From assembly GCF_035593265.1 (NCBI RefSeq), contig NZ_CP141614.1:2046001-2110000 (forward strand): a stretch of DNA of 64,000 nucleotides, given 5' to 3'. A model generated the notes under the pieces. That model did no database searches, was not told the origin of the DNA, and was given only the letters and a program-made list of their open reading frames with translations. The position numbers and the translations under genes are program-made. The stretch comes from Limnochorda sp. LNt (GTDB taxonomy: Bacteria; Bacillota; Limnochordia; Limnochordales; Geochordaceae). Positions 20,840 to 47,826 of the stretch are shown one piece after another (positions within the stretch are counted from its first letter, which is position 1; the number at the start of each line of letters is the position of its first letter).

Positions 20840-21235
20840 CCCATGATCCCCCGTCAAGACCTTTCCTCAAAGTAAGTCTTCAAGTTCACGCTGAGGCTGC
20901 GAGAGCCCCGCGCGTGGCTCGGCTGGCGTTTCCTCCGGACGACGCGGGGCGGTCCAGGATGCGTCCGACTCGATCCGCGAGCCAGGCCATCACCTGCGCG
21001 GTAGGATACGGCACCGCGTTCTGGTCGAGCACCGACACCCATGATCCCCCGTCAAGACCTTTCCTCAAAGTAAGTCTTCAAGTTCACGCTGAGGCTGCGA
21101 GAGCCCCGCGCGTGGCTCGGCTGGCGTTTCCTCCGGACGACGCGGGGCGGTCCAGGATGCGTCCGACTCGATCCGCGAGCCAGGCCATCACCTGCGCGGT
21201 AGGATACGGCACCGCGTTCTGGTCGAGCACCGACA
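20840..21235. repeat. 198-bp perfect tandem duplication
   Basis: 20840-21037 is repeated exactly as 21038-21235, beginning CCCATGATCCCCC and ending GTCGAGCACCGACA. The unit covers the 3' end of the IS110 element, including the last about 50 codons of its transposase. It is a multiple of three in length. Because the two copies appear identical, the duplication is recent. Confidence 0.95.
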
Positions 21236-34885: not shown

Positions 34886-34921
34886 CTTTTCAGCCGGCCT
34901 TGACAGCTGTGGTGCTTCTGG

Positions 34922-37557: not shown

Positions 37558-38697
37558 GTGGCGGTGACGGACGCAGGCGAGAAGCAGCCGCAGCGGGCGG
37601 CGGCCCGCCCCTCTCGGGCGGCACGGCGGGCGGCATGGCCGGCGGAGTGGCGCCATGCCTTCGCCCTGAGCCTGTTGCCCTTCTTGCTCTCCGTCGGGTT
37701 GCTCTCCATCGGGCTCGTGGCGCTGGCCCCGGGTAGCGCCTCGGCCGCCGACGTGGTCACCCTGGGCACCCTCAAGCTCATCGGAGGGGCGCCCATCTTC
37801 GTGGGCCTCGATAAGGGCTTCTTCGCCGAAGAGGGTCTCGACGTGCAGGTGCGGTGGTTCTCCGCGGCCTCGCCCATCGCGGTCGCCGTGGCGGCCAATC
37901 AGCTGGACGTGGGAGCGACCGGCATCACGGCAGCCCTCTTCAACAGCATCGCCCAGGGGGCACGTCTCATCCTGGTGGCCGATCGGGGCTCGGAGCGGCC
38001 GGGCTACCGGCTCAACGCGCTGCTCACCTCCCGGGAGCGCTACGAGGCCGGCCTGCGAAGCGTGCAGGACCTGCGGGGGGCCCGCATCGGCATCACCGAG
38101 CTCGGCTCCACCTACCACTACCAGATCGGCCGCATCCTCGAGCTCAACGGCATGTCGGTCGGCGACGTGGAGCTCGTGCCGCTGCGCGACATCTCCATGA
38201 TGCTGCAGGCCGTGCGCCAGGGCACCGTCGACGCCGCCCTGGTCTCGCCGCCCTGGGGGGCCAACGCCGAGGCCGAGGGCTGGGGCAGGGTGGTCTTCTG
38301 GGCCGGGGATCTGTTGCCCTACCAGGTGACGGGCGTCTTCTTCTCGCAACGGATGGCAGCGCGGCGTGACGTGGCAGTCCGGTTCATGCGGGCATACATC
38401 CGGGGCGTGCGCTGGTACAACCAGGCCGCCTTCGGGCTGGGCGGGCCTGGCGGCCCCGGCACGGCGATGCACGATGAGCTGCTGCGCATCGTCGCCGACT
38501 ACACCGGTGCCCGGCCTGACGCCATCGCCCTCTCCCTGGCCTACGTGGACCCCGAGGCCCGGGTGGACGTGGCGGACCTCCGCCAGCAGCAGGAGTGGTA
38601 CCAGGCCCACGGTCTGCTGGCGCGGGTGGTGGACCCGGCTCAGTTCGTCGACATGTCCTTCATCGACGAAGCGCTGGCCGGGCTGGCGGCCCGCTGA
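37558..38697 (+). CDS. ABC transporter substrate-binding protein (SsuA/TauA/NMT1 type)
   Basis: The 379-residue secreted protein has a Lys/Arg-rich N-terminus, a hydrophobic signal segment (FALSLLPFLLSVGLLSIGLV) and a cleavage area near ASA. Mature motifs GAPIFVGLDKGFFAEEGLDV, LDVGATGITAALFNSIAQGA and GARIGITELGSTYHYQIGRI fit the NMT1/SsuA family that binds sulfonates, nitrate, pyrimidines or aromatic acids. The start is GTG 37558. It is followed by its ATPase and permease. The ligand is not predictable. Confidence 0.9.
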   Translation: MAVTDAGEKQPQRAAARPSRAARRAAWPAEWRHAFALSLLPFLLSVGLLSIGLVALAPGSASAADVVTLGTLKLIGGAPIFVGLDKGFFAEEGLDVQVRWFSAASPIAVAVAANQLDVGATGITAALFNSIAQGARLILVADRGSERPGYRLNALLTSRERYEAGLRSVQDLRGARIGITELGSTYHYQIGRILELNGMSVGDVELVPLRDISMMLQAVRQGTVDAALVSPPWGANAEAEGWGRVVFWAGDLLPYQVTGVFFSQRMAARRDVAVRFMRAYIRGVRWYNQAAFGLGGPGGPGTAMHDELLRIVADYTGARPDAIALSLAYVDPEARVDVADLRQQQEWYQAHGLLARVVDPAQFVDMSFIDEALAGLAAR

Positions 38698-38789
38698 GCG
38701 GAGCCTGACGGGGTAGCCGCCGGGGCCGAGGCGGCGGCTGCCCGTGCACGACGGGGGCAGCTGCGACGACAGCAGGCGAGGTCAGAGGG

Positions 38790-39869
38790 ATGCGCATCGA
38801 GGTCGACGGAGTGCGGGTCGAGTACGCGTCGGGGCGCGGCCGGGAGCCGGTACTGGCCCTGGACGGGGTCAGTTTCGAGGTGGGCTCCGGTGCGTTCGTG
38901 GCGCTGCTCGGGCCCAGCGGCTGCGGCAAGTCGACGCTGCTGGCGGTGGTGGCCGGGCTGATGGCCCCCAGCGCGGGCGAGGTGCGCTTCGTGGAAGAGG
39001 GCGGGCGGCCGGCGGCGGGCGGCGATGGCATGGGCGCCGGGCAGGCGCTGTCGGCCGTGGTCTTCCAGGAGTTCGCCCTCTTCCCGTGGCGGACGGTGAT
39101 GGACAACGTCACCTTCGGGCTCGAGGTGCGGGGGGTGGGGTCGGGCGCCCGCCGTGAGGCGGGGCGCCGGTACCTCGAGATGGTGGGGCTGGGCTCGGTG
39201 GCCCAGCGCCTGCCGGCCGAGCTGTCAGGCGGCATGAAGCAGCGGGTGGGCATCGCCCGGGCCCTGGCGGTGGAGCCCCGGGTGCTGCTGATGGATGAGC
39301 CCCTCTCGGCCCTCGACGCCCAGACCCGGGCGCTGCTGCAGCAAGACCTGCTGCAGCTGTGGGAACGCACCGGCAAGACGGTTCTCTACGTGACCCACAA
39401 CATCGAGGAGGCGGCCTTCCTGTCCGACCGGGTGGTCGTGCTCAGCCGCCGGCCGGGACGGGTCAAGGCCGAGGTGGTGGTGCCCTTCGGGCGGCCCCGC
39501 GATGAAGGGCTGCTGGCCACGGGGGAGTTCGCGGCCTTCGTGCAACGGCTGTGGGGTCTGCTACGGGAGGATGCCCGGCTGGCCATGTGGCAGGTGGACG
39601 GCCTTGCGACGTCGGGGGTGGGCGAGGCAGCACCAGGTGAAGTGGCGCAGGGCGGGGCGGGCACTTGGGGCGATGCTGTGGCCCGACCCGAGGCGGCCCG
39701 CCAGCCGCATCGCCTGGGCCAAGCGGTGCTTCTCGACGCTGGCCGCGGCGACTCGGCTGCTGTCGCTGCCGGTGTCGCCCTCGCCGGCGACGACACCGGC
39801 CGGGAAAGAGCTGCGGCCGGCCGCACGCAGGCAGCGCCGACTGCCCTATCGCCGGCGCCCGGGTCGTAG
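38790..39869 (+). CDS. ABC transporter ATPase (SsuB/TauB type) with long C-terminal tail
   Basis: The 359-residue protein contains Walker A GPSGCGKST at 41-49, a Q-loop in VVFQEFALFPWRTV, the signature LSGGMKQRVGIARAL, Walker B VLLMDEPLSALD and the H-loop in VLYVTHNIEEAAFLSDRV. The nucleotide-binding domain ends near residue 260 (FAAFVQRLWGLLRED), the usual family length. About 95 further residues are Ala/Gly/Pro-rich and overlap the open frame of the permease upstream region. The tail may be an artefact of a lost stop codon, or a linker. Confidence 0.9.
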   Translation: MRIEVDGVRVEYASGRGREPVLALDGVSFEVGSGAFVALLGPSGCGKSTLLAVVAGLMAPSAGEVRFVEEGGRPAAGGDGMGAGQALSAVVFQEFALFPWRTVMDNVTFGLEVRGVGSGARREAGRRYLEMVGLGSVAQRLPAELSGGMKQRVGIARALAVEPRVLLMDEPLSALDAQTRALLQQDLLQLWERTGKTVLYVTHNIEEAAFLSDRVVVLSRRPGRVKAEVVVPFGRPRDEGLLATGEFAAFVQRLWGLLREDARLAMWQVDGLATSGVGEAAPGEVAQGGAGTWGDAVARPEAARQPHRLGQAVLLDAGRGDSAAVAAGVALAGDDTGRERAAAGRTQAAPTALSPAPGS

Positions 39870-39900
39870 CCCGCCGCCTCCGGAGCCGGCCCGGCGGCCG

Positions 39901-40644
39901 GTGCCCAGGGGCGTGCTGGGCTTCGCCTCAGTGGCGGCGGTGCTGGTGGCCTGGGAGGCCGTCACCCGGGCCGGGTGGCTGCCCCCGCTCTTCCTGCCAC
40001 CCCTTTCCGACGTGCTGACCGAGCTGGGGCGGCTGGTCGCGTCGGGCGAGCTGGCCAGGAGCTTGGCCTTGAGCCTGCAGCGCATCGCGCTGGGGTGGTT
40101 GCTGGGGTCGGTGGCCGGCTTCGCCGTGGGGTTGCTGGTGGGGCTGTCGCCGGTGGCGGAAGGGCTGCTCGACCCCCTCATCGCCCTCACCTACCCCATC
40201 CCCAAAATCGCCATCCTGCCCCTGCTGATCCTGTGGCTGGGCATCGGCGAACCCTCCAAGGTGGCGGTCATCGCAATCGGATGCTTCTTCCCGGTCGCGG
40301 TCAACACGGCGGCCGGGGTGCGTCGCGTCGACCCCGTGCTGACCCGGGCGGCCCGAAGCCTGGGCGCCCGCCCCTGGCAGGTCCTGACCAAGGTGACCAT
40401 CATGGCCGCGCTGCCGATGGTCTTCGCCGGGCTGCGATTGGCGGCCGGCATGGCATTGTTGCTGGTGGTGTCGGCCGAGATGATCGCGGCGCAGGCGGGC
40501 ATCGGCTTCCTGGTGCTGCAGGGCGGTGCCCTGATGCTGGTCAGCCGCCTGATGGCCGGGCTGGTGGTGCTGTCGCTGTTGGGCATCGCCAGCACGTGGC
40601 TCTTGCAGGCGGTGGAGCGCCGGGTGGTCCGGGGCCAGTCGTGA
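39901..40644 (+). CDS. ABC transporter permease (SsuC/TauC type)
   Basis: The product of 247 residues from GTG 39901 has six membrane segments (VLGFASVAAVLVAWEAV first). Its EAA-like loop is RAARSLGARPWQVLTKVTIM, followed by AALPMVFAGLRLAAGMALLL, typical of SsuC. The frame is open further upstream (ATG 39673), but that part is Arg/Pro-rich and overlaps the ATPase tail. GTG 39901 gives the family-standard length and places the first helix right after the start. No good ribosome site is visible, so the start is uncertain. Confidence 0.85.
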   Translation: MPRGVLGFASVAAVLVAWEAVTRAGWLPPLFLPPLSDVLTELGRLVASGELARSLALSLQRIALGWLLGSVAGFAVGLLVGLSPVAEGLLDPLIALTYPIPKIAILPLLILWLGIGEPSKVAVIAIGCFFPVAVNTAAGVRRVDPVLTRAARSLGARPWQVLTKVTIMAALPMVFAGLRLAAGMALLLVVSAEMIAAQAGIGFLVLQGGALMLVSRLMAGLVVLSLLGIASTWLLQAVERRVVRGQS

Positions 40645-40743
40645 AGGGGCCGGGCCAGGCTCGATAGCGCCCGGGGGGCGGCTGCGGGGCTTCCACCGAA
40701 GGAGCCCACGGCAAGCAATAGGCATCGGTCGACCGCTAGGCGA

Positions 40744-40763
40744 TTTTCAAGAGGTATTGAAAT
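40744..40763. promoter_or_regulatory. Inverted-repeat site 1 (TTTCAA-N6-TTGAAA)
   Basis: TTTCAA at 40745-40750 and TTGAAA at 40757-40762 are separated by GAGGTA. It has the same half-sites and the same 6-bp spacing as the larger perfect palindrome at 40908-40929. Both lie between the ABC permease and the anion transporter gene, so they probably bind one regulator (TetR/MarR/GntR-like size) that controls the transporter. Confidence 0.5.
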
Positions 40764-40907
40764 ACCCGTACGTCACGCCGACAGAGGGTCTGCACTCGCA
40801 GGTACGCACCGGTGGACGTAGTCAGGCAGGACAGCCAGTTCCGCCCCTGCGAGGGTGGCCCAGGCCCCGAGGCTGGCGTCGGGCCCCGTCCCCTCGGAAT
40901 GCGTGAG

Positions 40908-40929
40908 CATTTCAACGATCGTTGAAATG
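40908..40929. promoter_or_regulatory. 22-bp perfect palindrome (operator candidate)
   Basis: The palindrome, centred at 40918/40919, contains TTTCAACGATCGTTGAAA and extends two bases on either side with perfect symmetry. It lies about 120 bp upstream of the preferred start of the SLC13-type gene and 145 bp downstream of the matching site. No regulator gene is adjacent. An in-frame ATG at 40927 overlaps it, which is why that start was not chosen for the transporter. Confidence 0.65.
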
Positions 40930-41046
40930 GGTGCCTGGGCCGATCCGCCAGCAGGCGCAGGCTTTGGACCCCGTCTCTCGGCCGGCCGACGGCAGGGCTC
41001 TGCGCCGTGGGTGGGTGCGGACGGGAGGAAGGCCTTGGCCGGTCAG

Positions 41047-42459
41047 GTGAGTACCGCCCCTCGTGGGGCGCTGGTGCAGTGGTCGAGCCTCTCCTTTCAT
41101 TGGCTCCGCCACCGGGGTGCCGGCCTCGTCGTCAGCCTTGGGGCGGCCATGGCGGCCTTCGCTCTGGCGGGCAGCCTCGAGTCGGCGGCGCGCACCACCC
41201 TCGCCATCGTCATCGCCGCCGCGCTGCTGTGGATCACCGAAGCTCTCCCCCTCCACGTCACCGCCCTGGCGGTGCTGACGGCCGAGACCGTACTCCTCGC
41301 CTTGCCGGGCCGACCGCTGGCCCACCTGGGGCCCAGGGCCTTCGTGGCCGCGTTCGTCGATCCTGTACTGCTCCTCTTCCTCGGTGGCTTCGCTCTCGAA
41401 GAGGCCCTCAGCCAGTGCAGCCTCGACCGCCGCCTCGTACAGGCGATGCTCCATCGCGTCCCTGCGACGGCGCCCGGCGTGCTGGCCGGTACCATCGCCG
41501 TCACGGGCGCGCTGTCGATGTGGATGTCCAACACGGCGACGGCCGCCCTGATGATGGCCGTCATGCTGCCCCTCGTCTCTCGCCTGGACGCGGATGACCC
41601 CTTCCGTCGGGCGCTGCTGCTGGCCGTGCCCTTCGCCGCCAACATCGGAGGCATCGGCACGCCTGTCGGCACGCCGCCCAACGTCATCGCCCTGGGGGCG
41701 CTGCAACGGCTGGGTGTCACCGTCAGCTTCGCCCGGTGGATGGCCCTGGGGGTGCCGATGGCAACGGCGCTCTCGGCGGTGCTCTGGTGGGTGCTGCTGA
41801 GGTGCTTCCCGGCCAAGCCGACGTCGCTGGTGCACCTGCGGGCGGCCTGGGCAAGCCGTCCGGAACCTGTGACGCCGCAACAGCGGGGCGTGCTTGCCAT
41901 CGCCGGCCTGACCGCCGTGGGATGGCTCACGGCCGCATGGCATGGCATCCCCGAGTGGGTGGTCGCGCTCGTCCCCGTCATCGTGCTGGGCGGCATCGGG
42001 TGGCTGCCGTCGGGCGCCTTCCGGCGGATGGAGTGGGACGTGCTGGTGCTGATGGGGGGCGGCCTGAGCCTGGGCTTCGCCCTGCAGGCGTCGGGGCTGG
42101 CCGGATGGGCCGTGGGGCAGCCGATGGGCCCGTGGGCGGCGGTAGGAGCAGCGGCATCGGTGGCGCTGATGCTCGCCACGTTCATCAGCCACACCGCCGC
42201 GGCGGCGCTGCTGGTACCGGTGGTGGCAGGGGTGGGCGGGCCGATCGCCGCTCAGATGGCCGTCGCGGTCGCCCTGGGTGTCTCGGGGGCCATGGCATTG
42301 CCTGTCTCGACGCCACCCAACGCCATCGCCTTCGGCAGCGGCCAGTTGCGGGTGTGGGACATGGTCCTCATCGGGTTGCTGATCGGCGTACTGATGGTGG
42401 CCCTCGCCACCCTGCTGGTGCAGGTCTGGATAGGCGTGGGCCCCGGCGCCGGCGGCTGA
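41047..42459 (+). CDS. SLC13/DASS-family anion transporter
   Basis: The protein of about 470 residues has eleven to twelve membrane segments. The family signatures are duplicated: ALSMWMSNTATAALMMAVML with GGIGTPVGTPPNVIALG in the first half, and FISHTAAAALLVPVVAGVGG with ALPVSTPPNAIAFGSG in the second. These SNT/SHT plus TPPN motifs bind Na+ and carboxylate or sulfate. GTG 41047 is preferred since earlier starts overlap the palindromic site and add Pro/Arg-rich sequence; GGGAGGAAG lies about 15 nt upstream. Substrate is probably a di- or tricarboxylate or sulfate. It is convergent with the next gene (29 bp apart). Confidence 0.9.
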   Translation: MSTAPRGALVQWSSLSFHWLRHRGAGLVVSLGAAMAAFALAGSLESAARTTLAIVIAAALLWITEALPLHVTALAVLTAETVLLALPGRPLAHLGPRAFVAAFVDPVLLLFLGGFALEEALSQCSLDRRLVQAMLHRVPATAPGVLAGTIAVTGALSMWMSNTATAALMMAVMLPLVSRLDADDPFRRALLLAVPFAANIGGIGTPVGTPPNVIALGALQRLGVTVSFARWMALGVPMATALSAVLWWVLLRCFPAKPTSLVHLRAAWASRPEPVTPQQRGVLAIAGLTAVGWLTAAWHGIPEWVVALVPVIVLGGIGWLPSGAFRRMEWDVLVLMGGGLSLGFALQASGLAGWAVGQPMGPWAAVGAAASVALMLATFISHTAAAALLVPVVAGVGGPIAAQMAVAVALGVSGAMALPVSTPPNAIAFGSGQLRVWDMVLIGLLIGVLMVALATLLVQVWIGVGPGAGG

Positions 42460-45644: not shown

Positions 45645-46086
45645 ATGCGCGTGGGTCGGTGGGATGGGCGGCGACAGGTGGGGCTCGCGATGCTGGCGGC
45701 GGCCATTTGGGGGGTCGCCCTGGCCGGCGTCGCCCTGGGGGCGCAGCCGACGGTCCAGGTGCGCTTCGATGAGCGGCTGGGCTTCTTCCTGACGGGGCCG
45801 GACCCTGTACGTGTTTACCCGGGACGTCCCCGGCACCAGCAACTGCTATGACAACTGCGAGCAGATCTGGCCCCCTCTGGTGGTGGACCCGGGCCCGCCG
45901 GTCGCACCCCCGGGGCTGCCGGGTCAGCTGGGCACCACGACCCGGCGAGATGGCCGCCGGCAGGTGACGTACAACGGCTGGCCGCTGTACTACTGGGTGG
46001 GCGACACCGCCCCCGGGCAGACCAACGGGCAGGGCGTCAACGACGTCTGGTGGGTGGCCAACCTGGCGCCGACGGTCTGGCGTTGA
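45645..46086 (+). pseudogene. COG4315-type secreted protein, frameshifted
   Basis: ATG 45645 gives a twin-Arg-like basic start and a hydrophobic signal segment (GLAMLAAAIWGVALAGVALG), then PTVQVRFDERLGFFLTGPD. A shift near 45800 moves to a frame reading LYVFTRDVPGTSNCYDNCEQ, then IWPPL, then YNGWPLYYWVGDTAPGQTNG. LYxFxxDxxGxSxCxDxCxxxWPP is the repeat of the COG4315 predicted lipoprotein family. If the shift is real the protein is broken; a single-base sequencing error would restore about 147 residues. A second partial copy lies at 47960-48201. Confidence 0.7.
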
Positions 46087-46167
46087 ACAGCTCGTAGCGA
46101 CAATTCAAGGTGACAAAGAGCGACATGACGGGATCTATAAGGGCTGAGGTGGACAAAGCGGTTGTAT

Positions 46168-47826
46168 CTACGCCGTTTTTCGGGTGGGCGTCACAATCTT
46201 CAGGTAGTGGGGCGGTCGGTCGACCTTCAGGGCCTGAAACAGCGCCTTCTGCTCTTCGGTGAGGGGCGGACCTGCCAGACCTCGCCGTGGGCGGTGGCGT
46301 GGCGGCCCACGTCGATGGGGGCGACCAGATCCCGCATCTGTCGCCAGGTCTGGCCCGTCTCGTTCTCGGCCACCCGGATCATGAGGAGGGCCAGCCAGCA
46401 CAGCAGCACGTGGGACCGGATGCGGTCGTCGAGCCGGTGGTACATCGGCCGGACGTCGACCGTGTGCTTCAGGTCCCGGTGCACCCGTTCCACCTGCCAG
46501 AGTTGCTTGTAGCCGTAGACCAGGTCTTCGGCGGGCAAAAAGTCGTCGGAGCTGCTGATCACAAACTTCCCGTCGAGGGCGGCTTCTCGGCGAACCTTGG
46601 CCGCGTCGATGACCAGTCGCGCGCCCCGCGTCTGGCGCAGGTAGCGGCCGAAGGTCTCGTGGGCCCGCAGCTCGCAGGCTGCCTTGGTATGCGCCTCGCC
46701 CTGCTTCTGTTTGAGCGCTTCGAGCCGCTGGCGAAGCTCGGCCAGGATGGACTCCCGCTTCTGGCGGTCCCGCTCGGCCTCCTCGGGGTTGCGGACGATG
46801 ACGAAGCGCCGGCGGGCGGCGCTATCCCCTCCGACCACGACCTCCTTGATCTCCAGCCCGTCGGGAAGCCTGCGGTACTTGCCGCCCCGGCGCAGCGCCT
46901 CCGCGGGCACCCCCTGGGGGCCCACCCGCAACTTCTCCCCGATGATGTAGTGATCGCCGGCGCCCTGCAGGATGCGGCGGTTCGCCTCGGAGTTGAAGCC
47001 CGTGTCCAACACCACGACCACCCGGTTGAGCTTCCAGCCGTTGAGATCCCGTTTGACCTCGGCCACGACGTTCTGGTCGCCGGTGTTGCCGGGCCAGACC
47101 CAGCAGCGGACCGGGATGCCGTCCCGGGTCACGGCCAAGCCGATGACCACCTGGGCCATCTTCGGATGATCATCGGCGCTGTGCCCCCAGCGGCGCAACC
47201 CGTCGGCGTCCTCGCCCTCGATTTCGAAGTACGCCGTCGTCGTATCGAAGAAGATGACGTCCACTTCGAGGTTGAAGAGGTTGGCCAGCGTCCAGAAGAC
47301 CTCGCGCTGGATCGCCTCGGCAGCCTCCAGCAGAAAGTCCATGGCCGGTAGAGCCTGGTGGACTTCCACCGCGGGCAGCTGGTCGATGTAGACGTCCTGC
47401 GCCACCCACTTCTCGATGGCCAGGCTTGCTGGACGGCGCCAGGGCCCGGTTGGCCACCATGGCGAAGAGGAGCCGCTCGATGGGGGTCTGGTAGTGGCGC
47501 GCTTTGAGCAGGCGCTGCAAGGTCTTCTGGATGCCCAGCCGCCGCCACAGCCCGTCCAAAAGCCACGTCCCGCCCAGCTTCAGGGAGCCCAGGTACCGAA
47601 AGGGCCACTCCATGCCGAGATCCTTCTGCAGTTGGGCCTGCTCGTCGGGGGGCAGGAACCGGGCGATGCTGCGCACCAGGCGGCGCAGCGCGTCCAGGTC
47701 GAGCTGGTCGACCCGGCCGAAGGTGTACAGCACCTGGGCCCGGGGCTGTCCAGTCTTGGGGTCCCGGACGTTATGGGCAAGCTGGGCGTATTGGATGCCC
47801 TTGGAAGTGACGGTGCGCACGTACAT
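46168..47826 (-). pseudogene. IS1634-family transposase, second copy, frameshifted
   Basis: MYVRTVTSKGIQYAQLAHNV at 47826 is the start. Frame changes near 47425 and 46280 divide it into three parts. The middle part has VDVIFFDTTTAYFEIEGED (first Asp), VVVVLDTGFNSEANRRIL (second) and YKQLWQVERVHRDLKHTV (Glu). The last part ends LTEEQKALFQALKVDRPPHY. Each catalytic residue is still present, but no single frame encodes the whole protein. It is only distantly related to the copy at 19.6 kb. TGTCAAT near 47862 may mark the right end; the left end was not found. Confidence 0.8.

Follow-up and report, generated by a model that had tools for sequence, protein, structure and literature searches.

What does a pair of palindromic sites between two transport units do? 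In the 64,000-nucleotide stretch of the Limnochorda sp. LNt chromosome analyzed here (the window; positions 2046001-2110000 of a 3,019,339-base, or 3.02 Mb, chromosome), two sites of the form TTTCAA-N6-TTGAAA lie between an ABC transporter operon and an SLC13-type transporter gene. A first-pass annotation had taken them for one cooperative operator of an unlinked regulator, placing both transport systems under a common carboxylate, sulfate or sulfonate signal. We asked what these sites are, to which genes they relate and where else they occur.

The window pair and its neighbors

Both sites are present as described. The pattern reads at 40745-40762 (TTTCAAGAGGTATTGAAA, the left site) and at 40910-40927, where it lies within a perfect 22-bp palindrome, CATTTCAACGATCGTTGAAATG (the right site). 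These are the only exact matches in the window; four matches with at most two mismatches were counted there, compared with 0.23 expected (sd 0.55; none of 100 shuffles reached four). The whole genome holds five exact matches and, when one mismatch is allowed, 13 places against none for a reversed control, so the motif is far more frequent than chance predicts. The left and right sites are referred to below as A and B, and their coordinates and neighbors are collected in Table 1.

The SLC13-type gene is the sole gene that starts beside the pair, about 105 bp past B. Its TTG start was chosen from the SD sequence and homology within an ORF that is open from 40855, and the TIGR00785 match begins at residue 107 counted from that position. 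No DNA-level match to this gene was found in three genomes used for comparison (G001 to G003). The ABC operon is transcribed in the direction of the pair, its last gene stopping 100 bp short of A. The window scan placed no site with at most two mismatches directly upstream of its first gene (at ~37.5 kb), the nearest match lying at 34888. Since the gene on the A side, the ABC permease, points toward the pair, only the SLC13-type gene can be preceded by it. The window pair would thus either, if active, act on the SLC13-type gene, which starts past B, or be an orphan.

Three other features of the window were recorded. An MqsA/Panacea-domain (SocA-like antitoxin) gene at 35528-36577 matches G002 with 87% identity across 1050 bases, a similarity that its neighbors do not share, and it is likely to have been transferred recently. 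A stretch of 120 bases at 46081-46200 is 98% identical to a contig end of G003 and 87% identical to G002, in genomes that are otherwise ~70-75% identical. Positions 20840-21235 contain a 198-base unit in two exact tandem copies.

Table 1. Features at the window pair (window coordinates) and A-side genes of the other copies
Feature	Position	Strand	Description
Site A, copy e6	40738..40769	no strand	AT-rich palindrome, GC-rich arms; 20-base core 40744-40763; 44.0 bits (A matrix)
Site B, copy e6	40908..40929	no strand	Perfect 22-bp palindrome; 16-base core 40911-40926; 45.4 bits
ABC transporter operon	37558..40644	+	NMT1/SsuA/Tau type
ABC operon binding protein	37558-38697	+	
ABC operon ATPase	38790-39869	+	
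ABC operon permease	ending 40644	+	
SLC13/DASS-type anion transporter	41035..42459	+	TIGR00785 dass, 228.1 bits, cut-off 198.6
A-side gene, e1 and e2			ArsR-type
A-side gene, e3			Short-chain dehydrogenase
A-side gene, e4			Histidine kinase
A-side gene, e5			ECF sigma
A-side gene, e7			85-residue ORF before formamidase-like gene
A-side gene, e9			GH28/F5-F8 protein
A-side gene, e10			DinB-like protein
A-side gene, e11			ROK
A-side gene, e12			IclR
A-side gene, e13			2-hydroxyacid dehydrogenase

Two palindrome families in a fixed order

The core of B, TTCAACGATCGTTGAA, occurs genome-wide at 11 places with at most three mismatches (seven exact, three with one, none with two and one with three), compared with 1 for the reversed control; base composition predicts ~3e-5 exact copies. 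The copy with three mismatches (1403114) was counted only because an A partner is present. B is near-invariant, with perfect symmetry over 22 bp in the window and 26 bp in the consensus, and together with its common flanks it reads CGCATTTCAACG-AT-CGTTGAAATGCG, a 12-2-12 inverted repeat. Inspection of the flanks revealed a second palindrome, A, on one side of each B place. A is AT-rich and ~32 bp long, with TTTTAAATAGCTATTTAAAA inside GC-rich arms and a variable center (GC, CG, GG, CC or GT). Its core, with the center left free and at most three mismatches, was found at 10 places and nowhere in the control; three diverged copies, among them the left site of the window, were added from other patterns and neighborhoods, for a total of 13 (e1 to e13, the window pair being e6).

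Most A copies read TTTAAA-N6-TTTAAA or nearly so, and the window A is a diverged member. The layout TTTNAA-N6-TTNAAA is common to both families and explains the resemblance of the window A to a second B. The two window sites, earlier regarded as the same operator, belong to separate sequence families with 11 B and 13 A copies.

Position matrices were scanned over 604,508 bases, comprising all known copies and 20 chromosome samples. The 11 B copies scored 28.3-45.4 bits, with the next place at 9.1, and the 13 A copies scored 32.6-59.1 bits, with two unrelated places following at 24.5 and 22.3; as the matrices were built from the copies that they score (e2 and e8 were omitted from the B profile), the gap in these scores is informative and their height is not. 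The two lower-scoring A-like places, at 1296615 and 1347462, were excluded from the A set as parts of one recent 457-base repeat. This repeat (98.7% identical, inverted; genome 1296.6-1297.0 kb, L031:6579-7035, and 1347.1-1347.5 kb, L032:6061-6517) sits in a mosaic of other repeats, and its TTTCAA-N6-TTCAAA mimics A.

Every B (11/11) has an A on one fixed side. Two further A copies stand alone (e11 and e12, at 2167400 and 2175703), with no B of fewer than six mismatches within 1.5 kb. The distances between the centers of A and B are 165, 185, 206, 225, 256, 260, 265, 272, 292 and 298 bp, and 1182 bp in e9, the sole pair with a gene inside, which encodes a HEPN-domain protein (genome 2155975-2156412; L028:7976-8413). 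Of the two flanks of B, the one more often conserved (ATG, following TTGAA-A) faces away from A in 8 of the 11 copies, and its mirror image CAT is present toward A in 4. In e10, B is directly followed by a second near-palindrome, ATTTCCGGGGAAAT (genome 2159525-2159569; L022:1501-1545), which resembles the Noc site of Bacillus.

The spacing has no helical phase (Rayleigh p ~0.3, with e9 at 1182 bp omitted), and such variable, unphased distances do not indicate simple looping between A and B. Together with the gene arrangement in the window, this makes it highly improbable that the ABC operon and the SLC13-type gene are co-regulated from one cooperative operator through a carboxylate, sulfate or sulfonate signal. 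Equal half-sites and equal N6 spacing between two transport units would fit such an operator, but the families recur beside unrelated genes, the copies are not phased, and the ABC operon has its end beside the sites and no site directly upstream. The tie that had been drawn between the two transport units is not supported, and the remaining copies of both families adjoin unrelated genes. For the window itself the outcome is sobering: the two transporters are not linked by the pair.

Outside the sites, the copies could not be aligned better than shuffles. Mean z values were 0.13 for the interiors (53 pairs), 0.30 for the left flank (76 pairs) and 0.13 for the right flank (53 pairs), with one interior, two left-flank and one right-flank pair above z 3; e1/e2 and e7/e8, local duplicates that are ~85% alike across their neighborhoods, were left out. 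With interiors and flanks that cannot be aligned, the sites are kept and the rest is not, evidence against a transposable repeat. Within a copy, the two A arms match no better than arms taken from different copies (5.69 versus 5.58 for positions 0-10, 4.27 versus 4.43 for positions 10-30), which is what half-sites recognized in duplex DNA should show. Folded as DNA, five of the 13 A copies (z <= -2.4) and none of the B copies (lowest z -2.2) did better than shuffles. The overall picture is one of sites that would be recognized in duplex DNA and maintained by selection, rather than of a hairpin element or of transposon copies.

A hairpin or RNA element had also been considered and was rejected, given that the A arms do not co-vary, that only those five copies fold better than shuffles and that no Rfam family was matched at the window locus or in seven stretches with copies.

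Genes beside the pairs, chromosomal position and relatives

All 24 sites (11 B and 13 A) lie outside genes called with a simple codon-usage caller. The A-side gene reads away from the pair in 11 of 13 copies (p 0.022), at a gap of 154-410 bp (median 217), the exceptions being the window copy e6 and e8; for e6 the ABC permease was set as the A-side neighbor by hand, since the caller's ORF is a shadow. The B side is mixed: in four of 11 copies the neighboring gene runs up to B and stops 42-52 bp from it, and in seven it reads away from B. The A-side gene is thus the more constant relation. Six of the 11 A-side genes that read away are regulators, compared with 4 of the 30 control genes (out of 81) that have an upstream gap of at least 150 bp, a LacI-like domain match and CarD counted in. 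On 11 genes, this excess (one-sided Fisher p 0.013; 0.029 without the duplicate e2) is suggestive of an enrichment in regulators. The genes next to the copies share no common pathway.

From these data we consider it roughly an even matter (probability ~0.52) that the TTTCAA-N6-TTGAAA pair of the window is one copy of a bipartite, species-specific operator set that serves a regulon of about a dozen targets through putative dimeric helix-turn-helix proteins. Such a bipartite regulatory site would then be complete at 11 places and represented by A alone at two others. A and B are probably docking sites for one or two unnamed DNA-binding proteins, with a homodimer on each, either the same protein or two relatives. 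Mostly the pair stands upstream of the A-side gene, often a regulator, with A ~0.2 kb and B ~0.4-0.5 kb from the start codon, and regulation would act on that side. Several features run against the operator reading: e6 and e8 break the rule that the pair precedes the A-side gene, and e11 and e12 have no B. Ordinary operators lie closer to start codons than the 0.2 and 0.4 kb seen here, and operators are usually common within a genus, which A and B are not. Of the operator first proposed, what survives is a recurring pair of sites, above chance, that resemble those bound by dimeric proteins and make a regulator with many target places plausible; the single shared operator does not survive.

Among candidates for such a regulator, the ArsR-type gene with divergent orientation at e1 and e2 comes closest, and it amounts to a lead only. 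ArsR-type genes occur beside two of 13 copies, which are duplicates of each other. They match HTH_20/HTH_5, reach 54.1 bits with NF033788 against a cut-off of 55, and the protein matches the PDB ArsR structure 6j0e with E 4e-7. The duplicated block that spans e1 and e2 covers genome positions 1317431-1326904 (L025:5432-14905). At e1 the ArsR-type gene, L025:5432-6019, is divergent from a gene for an HmcB/HybA-like Fe-S protein; at e2 a shorter ArsR-type gene is accompanied by a short ORF and an HmcC/NrfD-like gene.

All copies are confined to 1.318-1.403 Mb and 1.997-2.187 Mb, with none at 1.45-1.99 Mb. The chance of finding the 11 B within 1.318-2.187 Mb is ~4e-5, a figure that covers fewer independent events owing to the two local duplicates. 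With dnaA at 56 kb and a skew that changes sign at 1.45-1.55 Mb, the mark of the terminus, the copies are centered on neither origin nor terminus. B, together with A, might instead be occupied by a protein of the nucleoid or of chromosome segregation, as matS, parS and Noc sites are, and would then adjoin gene starts by coincidence. This would agree with a near-invariant palindrome restricted to one part of the chromosome and with the intergenic position of every copy. We regard it as quite unlikely, since the clusters skip 1.45-1.99 Mb without being centered on origin or terminus, 11 of 13 copies are oriented to a gene start, and the sites form a set in none of the 40 relatives searched, whereas chromosome-organizing systems are usually conserved over families.

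Neither A nor B occurs as a set in any of 40 relatives: with at most one mismatch, each gave one single match among them, and B gave none in the three other genomes of the genus (one) and family (two). In a count of TTTCAA-N6-TTGAAA over 60 genomes, the five of its own genome stood against none in the 20 closest relatives and 0-2 in the others, with 0-1 for the reversed control. An 18-bp B core has eight single exact matches in GTDB contigs, all in distant organisms and compared with ~4 expected on a rough estimate with equal base use; no A-like core with fewer than three mismatches lies beside these eight. A search with the 18-mer, and searches with one copy each in plasmids and in phages, gave no match in viruses, plasmids or phages. 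Measured against the refuting conditions given with the operator proposal, the motif passes on non-random occurrence and fails on conservation upstream of orthologues.

Four loci (e4, e5, e11 and e12) could be compared with G001 to G003. There the A-side gene or operon is present with another gene on the opposite side of the site, and inspection of the matching loci revealed no palindrome resembling A or B. The difference in gene order from these distant relatives is weak evidence, breaks being frequent in the region. The operon between e11 and e12 is common to genus and family.

These breaks bear on two further explanations. An old MITE- or REP-type interspersed repeat, of which A and B would be the palindromic ends left as remnants over a flexible part of the genome, is suggested by elements that are lineage-specific, intergenic, palindromic and multi-copy, by the duplicates e1/e2 and e7/e8, by the HEPN gene between A and B in e9, by the other recent repeats in the genome and by the altered gene order at the four loci. 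It is nevertheless unlikely: interiors and flanks cannot be aligned except in the duplicates, and yet B is identical in 7 of 11 copies; spacing varies while gene orientation is non-random (11/13); the A arms do not co-vary, and the folding results are those given above; gene order breaks often in this region anyway; and plasmids and phages, each tried with one copy, gave no match. That A and B are the crossover or accessory sites of a site-specific recombinase, and as such mark past insertions of gene blocks, is very unlikely. The six central bases of B are kept, as in crossover sites, and block borders at e4, e5, e11 and e12 and the gene inside e9 point the same way, but the center of A varies, no recombinase gene recurs among the scanned neighbors, and the operon between e11 and e12, being common to genus and family, is no cassette.

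If A and B are operators, then one species has a two-site regulon of a dozen targets that is absent from its genus neighbor and from the family, and the pairs would precede several of the species' own regulators, a clean case for the origin of a new global regulator. The invariance of the B core should make the isolation of its binding protein simple. A bolder version, which we hold to be doubtful, is that the two palindromes, in fixed order and mostly 0.2-0.3 kb apart, form a species-specific, enhancer-like control layer that acts at 0.2 and 0.4 kb on regulator-rich targets in a flexible part of the chromosome; this would be a young master regulon, possibly restraining acquired genes, with proteins not yet known.

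Comparison with known systems

A set of operators is a known kind of element. For the fixed coupling of two different palindromes, mostly 0.2-0.3 kb apart, far from starts and in one species, a limited literature search returned no description, nor did it return the B sequence or an ArsR-family operator or palindrome with TTGAA. The closest known systems are the operators of dimeric helix-turn-helix regulators, in particular those of the SmtB/ArsR family, for which the repeats listed in one paper are 12-2-12 inverted repeats reading TGA..TCA (PMC8790569). B is likewise a 12-2-12 inverted repeat, but its half-site letters differ from those listed, being TCAA..TTGA. At e1 and e2 an ArsR-type gene reads divergently, and several copies are spread over one genome. 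Unlike these operators, B is for the most part distant from start codons and has a second palindrome of another type as its partner. As the layout matches and the letters do not, we have not filed B as an SmtB/ArsR operator.

Short, near-invariant palindromes in about a dozen copies over part of a chromosome also describe the parS/ParB and Noc sites, which organize chromosomes. B shares these traits with the matS sites of MatP as well, as far as these are described in PMC3330122. Unlike matS, parS and Noc sites, A and B are not centered on origin or terminus, B is paired with A, and the sites are oriented to genes and absent in relatives. With REP/BIME and ERIC-type extragenic palindromes and MITEs, as portrayed in the accounts consulted (PMC3733652 and PMC10969869), A and B have in common that they are intergenic, palindromic, multi-copy and lineage-specific; they differ in having no shared interior and no co-varying arms, and in consisting of two different palindromes in a fixed order.
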